A stretch of DNA of 64,000 nt from Promicromonospora thailandica (GTDB taxonomy: Bacteria > Actinomycetota > Actinomycetes > Actinomycetales > Cellulomonadaceae): positions 1 through 64,000 of the forward strand of contig NZ_JAMTCS010000017.1 in NCBI RefSeq assembly GCF_024171955.1, written 5' to 3'. The translations under genes were made by a program, and so were the position numbers. Below, in pieces: positions 61,764 to 63,732 of the stretch (the first letter of the stretch is position 1; each line of letters begins with the position of its first letter). The notes beneath the pieces were generated by a model. The model was given only the letters and a program-made list of their open reading frames with translations. It made no database searches and had not been told where the DNA came from.

Positions 61764-63395
61764 CTATGCGCGGGGTTCGACGCCCGACTTCAGGAGGCCG
61801 AACACGTACGCCTCCGTGACCGCCTCCCACGCCGCCTCGACGAGGTTCGGGCCGACGCCGACCGTGGACCACGACCGCTCGCCGTCGCTGGTGTCGATCA
61901 GCACGCGCGTGATCGCGTCTGTACCGAGCTCGGTGTCCAGGATCCGTACCTTGAAGTCGATCAGCTCGAACCGGGCCAGCTCGGGGTAGACCCGCGACAG
62001 CGCGCTGCGCAGCGCCTGGTCCAGCGCGTTGACGGGGCCGTTGCCCTCGCCGGTGGACACGATGCGCTCGCCGCCCGCCCGGAGCTTGACGGTCGCCTCG
62101 GCCACGGCGGCGGCGTCCGGCGCGTGGACCGACGGCGGGGCGGCGCCCGCCGGGACCGTCTCGATGATCGTGCGCCACGACTCGACCGCGAAGTACTCGG
62201 GCCGCTGCCCCAGCTCGGAGCGCAGCAGCAGCTCGAACGACGCGTCGGCGGCCTCGTAGGTGTAGCCGGCCGCCTCGTCGTCCTTCACCCGGTTGGTGAC
62301 CCGCGAGAGCAGCTCGCCCTGGCCCGCGAGGTCGAAGCCCAGCTCGCGGCCCTTGAGCTCCACCGACGCGCGGCCCGCCATGTCGGAGACCAGCATGCGC
62401 ATGTCGTTGCCCACGAGGGTCGGGTCGGTGTGCTGGTACATGTCCGGGTCCACGCGGATGGCGCTGGCGTGCAGGCCGCCCTTGTGCGCGAAGGCGCTGG
62501 CACCCACGTACGGCTGCCGCGCGAACGGCGAGATGTTGGTGATCTCGCTGATGGCGTGCGCGATCCGGGTGGCCTCCCGCAGTCCGTCGTCGGCCAGGAG
62601 CGTCATGCCGGACTTGAGCTCCAGGTTGGCGACCACGGTGACGAGGTCGGCGTTGCCGGTGCGCTCCCCGTAGCCGTTGACGGTGCCCTGCACGTGCGTC
62701 GCGCCCGCCTCGACGGCGGCCAGCGAGTTCGCGACGGCACAGCCGCTGTCGTTGTGCGCGTGCACGCCCAGCAGCCGGTCCGGCCCGATGCCGGTCGTGT
62801 CGCGCAGCTCGCGCACGATCTCGCCCACCCACGTGGGCAGCATGCCGCCGTTGGTGTCGCAGAGCGTGACCACCTCGGCGCCCGCCTCGAACGCGGTCAC
62901 GACGGCGCTGGTCGCGTAGTCCCGGTCGTACCGGTAGCCGTCGAAGAAGTGCTCGGCGTCCAGCACCACGCGGCGCCCCTCGGCCACGAGGAACGCGACG
63001 GTGTCGCCGATCATGGCGAGGTTCTCGGCGCGCGTCGTGCGCAGCGCGCGCTCCACGTGCCGCACGTCCGACTTGGCCACGAGCGTGACGACGGGGGTGG
63101 CCGCGTCCAGGAGCGCGCGCACCTGCGGGTCGTCACCCGCCCGTACGCCCGCCCGGCGCGTGGCGCCGAACGCGGCGAGCACCGCGTTCTTCAGGGTCAG
63201 CTCGGCGGCGGCCCGGGCGAAGAAGTCGGTGTCCTTGGGGACCGCGCCCGGCCAGCCGCCCTCGATGTAGCCGACGCCGAGCTCGTCGAGCAGCGCCGCG
63301 ATGGCGAGCTTGTCGGAGACGGAGAGGCTCATGCCCTCCTGCTGCGCGCCGTCGCGCAGCGTCGTGTCGTACACCTGGAACGGGGCGGTGGTCAT
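61764..63395 (-). CDS. cimA: Citramalate synthase
   Basis: 543 residues from ATG 63395 with GGGAG upstream. Starts with VYDTTLRDGAQQEGMSLS, catalytic Asp/Glu in the DRE-TIM fold; HAHNDSGCAVAN binds metal, TVNGYGERTGNADL continues the barrel and the C-terminal LeuA dimer-like domain carries regulation. It condenses pyruvate with acetyl-CoA to citramalate for isoleucine synthesis through LeuCD and LeuB. An Ile-rich leader peptide and attenuator hairpins lie just upstream, so its expression is likely controlled by isoleucyl-tRNA supply. Confidence 0.9.
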   Translation of the reverse strand: MTTAPFQVYDTTLRDGAQQEGMSLSVSDKLAIAALLDELGVGYIEGGWPGAVPKDTDFFARAAAELTLKNAVLAAFGATRRAGVRAGDDPQVRALLDAATPVVTLVAKSDVRHVERALRTTRAENLAMIGDTVAFLVAEGRRVVLDAEHFFDGYRYDRDYATSAVVTAFEAGAEVVTLCDTNGGMLPTWVGEIVRELRDTTGIGPDRLLGVHAHNDSGCAVANSLAAVEAGATHVQGTVNGYGERTGNADLVTVVANLELKSGMTLLADDGLREATRIAHAISEITNISPFARQPYVGASAFAHKGGLHASAIRVDPDMYQHTDPTLVGNDMRMLVSDMAGRASVELKGRELGFDLAGQGELLSRVTNRVKDDEAAGYTYEAADASFELLLRSELGQRPEYFAVESWRTIIETVPAGAAPPSVHAPDAAAVAEATVKLRAGGERIVSTGEGNGPVNALDQALRSALSRVYPELARFELIDFKVRILDTELGTDAITRVLIDTSDGERSWSTVGVGPNLVEAAWEAVTEAYVFGLLKSGVEPRA

Positions 63396-63454
63396 CGAGG
63401 CTCCCAACGATGATGTGTCTGGTGACCCGGTCGGAGCCGGGCCGTCCGGCCAAC

Positions 63455-63483
63455 AAAAAAGACCCTCCAGGGTGTGGAAGGTC
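63455..63483 (-). terminator. Attenuator terminator before cimA
   Basis: On the minus strand a 9-bp stem (GACCTTCCA with TGGAGGGTC) around a 5-nt loop is followed directly by TTTTTTG, 60 bp upstream of the cimA start. This is a strong factor-independent terminator located in the untranslated leader, and a second 10-bp perfect hairpin (63485-63515) lies between it and the leader peptide's last codon. Premature termination in the leader is therefore likely. Confidence 0.75.
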
Positions 63484-63514
63484 TGCGCGTCCGGTGCGGT
63501 TCTCGCCGGACGCG

Positions 63515-63580
63515 CTACGAAATGATGATCACCTGTCGCAGGGTGGAGCTCAGGGTGAGGCACTCGGTCATGCGGGTCAT
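63515..63580 (-). CDS. Candidate isoleucine leader peptide of cimA
   Basis: 21 codons (MTRMTECLTLSSTLRQVIIIS) then TAG. The terminal V-I-I-I-S stretch is immediately before the hairpin 63485-63515, whose first base pair overlaps the stop codon. Runs of the regulated end-product amino acid directly before an attenuator are the hallmark of ribosome-stalling leaders such as ilv and leu leaders. No clear ribosome site is seen, so it may be leaderless or start at the second Met (18 codons). Found on the cimA strand, 185 bp before its start. Confidence 0.6.
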   Translation of the reverse strand: MTRMTECLTLSSTLRQVIIIS

Positions 63581-63732
63581 GGTGCCACAGCCCGGCGGCC
63601 CGCGGAAGTCGTGACCACCCTCTGAAGCGCGCGGACCCCGTGCGCCGCGGCCGAGGCATCGACGCGGTCGAGCCAGCGCACCTCGGCCTCGGCGACGAAG
63701 ACTCACGACTGGAGCGCGAGGGGTGCCCTCGG

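Follow-up and report, generated by a model that had tools for sequence, protein, structure and literature searches.

Upstream of the citramalate synthase gene cimA, in the 64,000-nucleotide stretch of Promicromonospora thailandica DNA analysed here (the window), we found a compact element that is very probably a ribosome-mediated transcription attenuator, sensing charged isoleucyl-tRNA and controlling cimA. This reading is drawn from sequence comparison. A first-pass annotation of the window had proposed ribosome-stalling attenuation by isoleucyl-tRNA at this place. The proposal gained support from conservation in 74 of 80 cimA upstream regions, from covariation, and from leader codons that track the product of the gene, but its mechanism has to be revised, since the two hairpins have no strand in common. 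The features are as follows.

61764..63395, minus strand: cimA, citramalate synthase, the gene predicted to be regulated (TIGR00977, 626.7 bits; cut-off 450)
63455..63460, minus strand: terminator U-tract, six T (from the sequence; kept in the 74 relatives that carry the element)
63460..63484, minus strand: terminator hairpin T, joined to P1 without a linker (covariation; terminator scan; linker of 0-1 nt in 136/138 relatives)
63485..63515, minus strand: hairpin P1 of 10 bp, whose first pair includes the G of the stop codon TAG (covariation in two sets; fold)
63521..63529, minus strand: three Ile codons, ATC ATC ATT, the putative regulatory codons (Ile at codon -2 in 100/107 and at codon -3 in 94/107 leaders)
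63515..63571, minus strand: leader ORF MTECLTLSSTLRQVIIIS as read from the revised start, probably leaderless (its frame and its start keep their place with respect to the -10 element)
63579..63584, minus strand: putative -10 element CACCAT in the extended motif TGTGGCACCAT (7 nt before ATG 63571; hexamer in 112/135 leaders vs 2.9%)

A short leader and two hairpins precede cimA

The identification of the downstream gene as cimA was correct: the minus-strand ORF 63395-61764 exceeds the cut-off of the citramalate synthase model TIGR00977 by a wide margin, and 2-isopropylmalate synthase models score far under their own cut-offs on it. Its ATG (63395) lies 59 nt beyond the T-run.

As first annotated, the leader was a 21-codon frame on the minus strand, running from ATG 63580 to TAG 63517-63515 (MTRMTECLTLSSTLRQVIIIS) and ending V-I-I-I-S-TAG. 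That end is present, but a second ATG is the likelier start. The first ATG belongs to the conserved TGTGGCAnnATG and is overlapped by the -10 element (63584-63579). A [CT]AnnnT hexamer stands 6-8 nt ahead of an in-frame ATG or GTG in 112/135 leaders, compared with 2.9% for background ATG/GTG, and thus the likely start is ATG 63571. Because TGTGG is conserved ahead of the hexamer, the promoter would have an extended -10. With such a promoter before the leader, the transcript should begin at or beside ATG 63571, and the leader, now 18 codons, is probably leaderless. Most relatives have leaders of 8-11 codons, versus the 18 seen here.

Hairpin P1 (GCGCGUCCGG/CCGGACGCGC) overlaps the stop codon, as had been noted, and alone folds at -20.9 kcal/mol (z -4.2). 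The second hairpin, T, with its six T residues, was also found where it had been described, but the fold gives it 10 bp instead of 9; alone it folds at -14.6 kcal/mol. The segment 63571-63455 as a whole reaches -49.3 kcal/mol versus -32.2 +/- 3.8 for shuffles (z -4.5, 0/200). A terminator scan returned two nested matches at one place, T, against 0.2 expected.

The element is conserved together with cimA

Comparison of related cimA genes, the check suggested with the first-pass annotation, was run on 80 upstream regions collected by CimA protein similarity alone. The short frame with Ile codons, P1 at the stop, T and the U-tract were kept in 74 of them. After the U-tract, GTTG occurs in 89/135 relatives and GTTT in 22 (window 63451-63454). 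In five of the six regions that lack the element (L069, L075-L078), cimA lies directly behind another coding frame, by eye an ilvE-like end, which suggests that control moves upstream in such arrangements.

A covariance model built from 20 sequences scored the element in the window at 78.7 bits (E 1e-21), a degree of conservation not due to chance, and its only match in the P. thailandica genome was the cimA element. The model placed the element in 189/297 Actinomycetes genomes: 184/237 genomes with cimA versus 5/60 without (Fisher p 1e-23). The 53/237 cimA-bearing genomes with no model match count against the attenuator reading. At most of the class-wide loci inspected, the cimA start lies some 100-250 nt downstream of where the match begins; at the remaining loci the gene is mainly ilvB. 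Among the named carriers are Cellulomonas carbonis, C. uda, Isoptericola, Cellulosimicrobium, Pedococcus, Nocardioides, Nonomuraea, Amycolatopsis, Kutzneria, Lentzea, Pseudonocardia and Acidimicrobiia MAGs. Outside Actinomycetes the model also matched in 40 genomes, where the gene after the element was cimA (L157, L160, L162, L164), ilvB, leuA or leuB; within this outside-class set, no locus named after a bacterium from beyond Actinomycetota matched at E 0.1.

These distributions bear on the idea that the hairpins just end upstream transcription, with the gene transcribed from a separate promoter located between T and the cimA start codon. The 59-nt interval is compatible with that idea, as is the fact that the start of transcription has been deduced from sequence. 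However, the conserved extended -10 lies directly before the leader, and across the phylum the leader and both hairpins remain attached to cimA, at distances from T to the gene of 33 to 285 nt. We regard a separate cimA promoter as highly improbable.

Isoleucine codons keep their distance from P1, and the stop codon falls at or inside P1

Ile codons just before the hairpins, three of which the first-pass annotation had pointed out in the window, proved to be the rule. All 107 distinct leaders have at least one Ile within their last five codons; before P1, Ile occupies codon -2 in 100 and codon -3 in 94. Ile-Ile is present in 91/107, against 0.4% of shuffles, and the two other frames have no such pair. 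Both ATT and ATC are used, so it is the residue that is kept and not the DNA. The class-wide leaders were found by a model that includes the Ile positions, but the Micrococcales leaders, chosen by protein alone, give the same picture as the whole set (Ile in 67/67, Ile-Ile in 52/67). In 11 of these 67 there is a single Ile codon, which we count against the attenuator reading. The leader statistics exclude class loci L093, L098 and L101.

The stop codon is fused to the first pair of P1 in 104/138 leaders. In another 33 it falls at +7, +10, +13 or +16, inside the 5' arm or loop of P1, as in the frames MNTSVIIIGKRV and MPSQVLIIVRRAG. The spacing from Ile to P1 is the same whether the stop lies at the first pair or inside P1. 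Hence a ribosome that finishes the leader would always cover P1, and a stalled one need not. Judged by the footprint of a ribosome, one that stalls on the Ile codons would have its leading edge close to the foot of P1. The pattern fits a P1 that would form under isoleucine shortage but not when the amino acid is abundant.

The two hairpins abut and share no strand

Compensatory changes, anticipated for both hairpins, were present in two separate alignments, Micrococcales (69 distinct rows) and other taxa (66 rows). Both were fitted to the covariance model and so lean towards its structure; within them, 94.5% and 94.0% of cells, respectively, are paired, and two-sided changes occur at 15/21 and 18/21 pairs. 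None of 500 shuffles reached any of five covariation measures, and slid versions dropped to 32-62% paired. The upper stem and loop of P1 vary freely; its foot, GCGCG, is nearly invariant.

Among the 138 parsed elements, P1 and T are separated by 0 nt in 109 and by 1 nt in 27. This junction is constant while the P1 loop, the leader length and the distance to cimA vary. The two hairpins coexist in the predicted fold, and an all-column covariation scan found no alternative or third helix with covariation. We also searched for a cryptic antiterminator helix between T and either P1 or the leader, looking through the relatives by eye as well as by the scan, and found nothing conserved. The pairings AGGU:ACCU and UCCGG:CCGGA are possible in the genus of the window but are not kept in relatives. 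A small hairpin over the Ile codons can form in some genomes and is not general.

Related elements precede ilvB, leuA and leuB

The cimA model also recovers leaders of ilvB, among them MRFGILVLH, MRKTILVVLMKRVG and MQTIILVVLPERAA, each closed by a stop codon, with a P1-T linker of mostly 0-2 nt. P. thailandica itself has such an ilvB leader, the GTG-started MQTIILVVLPERAA, with the same layout (L255 3503-3396, minus strand); its frame crosses the 5' arm of P1, and an abutting terminator and seven T follow. In other classes we found leuA leaders (MSQNLLLT, MRSFALELLLR) and a leuB leader (MSARQNAVIIIE), again each followed by a stop; representative genes were identified by NCBIfam. The leuA elements L154 and L167 have the compact layout, Leu-Leu-Leu codons and a terminator, and the leuB elements L166 and L169 the compact layout with Ile codons. 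The leader codons thus match the product of the gene: Ile for cimA, Ile/Leu/Val for ilvB and Leu for leuA. There was also a weak match upstream of leuS (E 0.18).

Two further observations concern this set. One model match (L158) lies upstream of prephenate dehydratase and has GTA CTG CTG ATC ACC TAG before P1, with no Phe run. A TGAGAC box stands upstream of 8/24 ilvB leaders (e.g., L111-L113, L131; shuffled mean 0.4) and is possibly a regulator site. We considered whether it is common to ilvB and cimA, and at cimA it was just weakly enriched.

The sister elements help in judging whether the element might instead combine a terminator with a hairpin that binds a protein or ligand, the short frame being incidental. 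The near-invariant foot of P1 would suit a binding site, and the LEU element of leuA has been suggested to bind protein (PMC1262725). This explanation is nonetheless improbable: Ile is conserved at the level of the residue, with ATT/ATC exchange and other frames empty, the upper stem and loop of P1 are free to vary, and the codons change with the gene.

Proposed mechanism

The element has a predicted leader frame with end-product codons and an intrinsic terminator between that leader and the first gene. By position, the 5' arm of P1 would lie under a ribosome at the stop codon, the stop being at or inside P1 in 137/138 leaders. Neither the fold nor the covariation scan yielded a textbook antiterminator sharing a strand with the terminator. 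Our claim is therefore that the element works like an attenuator, not that it has the textbook layout.

In the sequence of events that we envisage, RNA polymerase would begin transcription at the start codon of the leader, followed by a ribosome translating the short peptide. When isoleucine is sufficient, the ribosome would reach the stop codon, which coincides with the 5' arm of P1 or lies just beyond it, and cover that arm; with P1 blocked, T would fold and transcription would end before cimA. When isoleucine is scarce, the ribosome would stall at the Ile codons, P1 would be present and cimA would be read. We infer the stalling, the termination and the sign of the response from the arrangement of these parts.

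How P1 would stop T is the least certain step, because the two share no strand and antitermination cannot be simple strand competition. One possibility, on which our opinion is evenly balanced, is that the foot of T (AGA:UCU), the weaker of the two, is prevented from closing inside RNA polymerase by the stable GCGCG foot of P1, which lies directly against T.

A rival scheme keeps the same sensing and makes P1 a mere pause hairpin, serving to bring RNA polymerase into step with the leading ribosome and leaving the decision at T to an unrecognised structure or to a ribosome-polymerase contact. It agrees with the compatibility of P1 and T in the fold and their lack of strand sharing, and a pause role has been proposed for the first hairpin of C. 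glutamicum ilvBNC (PMC11857589). Yet pausing would not require the hairpin to adjoin the terminator, as P1 does with a linker of 0-1 nt in nearly every element, nor the stop codon to be placed at or inside the 5' arm. We consider the pause scheme a plausible but rather unlikely account.

Returning to antitermination by abutment, we suggest, tentatively and with considerable doubt, that actinobacteria have a family of minimal leaderless attenuators spread over the phylum (cimA, ilvB, leuA, leuB and perhaps leuS) that would use it in place of strand competition. The hairpin left intact by a stalled ribosome would butt against the terminator, whose foot could not then close in the exit channel of RNA polymerase. 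With no strand shared and the 0-1 nt junction strictly kept, this new idea of antitermination is directly testable.

If the attenuator reading holds, the citramalate route joins the genes controlled by ribosome stalling, and such control would be widespread in Actinomycetota. The Ile codons would also provide independent evidence that the CimA proteins serve isoleucine and not leucine synthesis; within this enzyme family, protein similarity by itself hardly separates the two roles. Finally, the leader would be a simple target for freeing industrial actinobacteria from isoleucine control.

Comparison with known systems

In the open-licence literature we found no report of a leader peptide, attenuation or a uORF for citramalate synthase or cimA, and the available portions of papers on actinobacterial leaders do not mention a cimA attenuator. 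This agrees with the statement in the first-pass annotation that leaders are known for ilv, leu and trp but not for cimA. As far as the searchable literature shows, the attenuator class is known, its member at cimA is unreported, and the hairpin layout is unusual. Searches of Rfam gave no match to the cimA element.

Like the T-box of actinobacterial ileS (PMC1262725), the element would sense the supply of isoleucyl-tRNA. A T-box binds the tRNA itself and requires no frame to be translated, whereas the cimA element has a short frame; as a candidate T-box it was rejected, with no Rfam T-box match at E up to 5. The LEU element of leuA (PMC1262725) also has a short leader ORF with end-product codons and precedes a synthase of the same enzyme family. 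LEU elements are described there as pseudoknots involving the leuA Shine-Dalgarno box, without a typical terminator, in contrast to the two plain hairpins and terminator at cimA. We rejected this assignment too: the terminator is present, ends 33-285 nt before the gene, and the covariation scan shows no further helix. The leuA elements L154 and L167 also differ from the described LEU element in having a terminator.

The enterobacterial attenuators of trp, his, leu and ilvGMEDA have end-product codons, a stop over a hairpin arm and a terminator before the first gene. The cimA element resembles them in its leader peptide codons, in the stop over a hairpin arm and in the terminator before the gene, but it has no common strand, no leader hairpin 1:2 and no separate ribosome binding site.

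The closest parallels are at ilvB. Actinobacterial leaders of ilvB, leuS and leuA have been described already (PMC1262725, PMC8079986), and experiments in C. glutamicum (PMC11857589) and in M. tuberculosis (PMC13236596) have shown that ilvB leaders act by transcription attenuation. Changes to candidate codons in the S. coelicolor ilvB leader were reportedly without effect (cited in PMC1262725), which counts against the attenuator reading. The leaders of C. glutamicum ilvBNC, M. tuberculosis ilvB1NC and Streptomyces ilvL (PMC1262725, PMC11857589, PMC10272879, PMC13236596, PMC8079986) share with cimA a leaderless or near-leaderless short ORF with branched-chain codons. A hairpin followed by an adjacent intrinsic terminator is likewise common to both, and the cimA model finds the ilvB leaders. 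The cimA element differs in the gene it would control and in having Ile codons instead of Ile/Leu/Val. In C. glutamicum ilvBNC, the antiterminator and terminator are adjacent and overlap by three bases (PMC11857589), whereas P1 and T at cimA merely abut.
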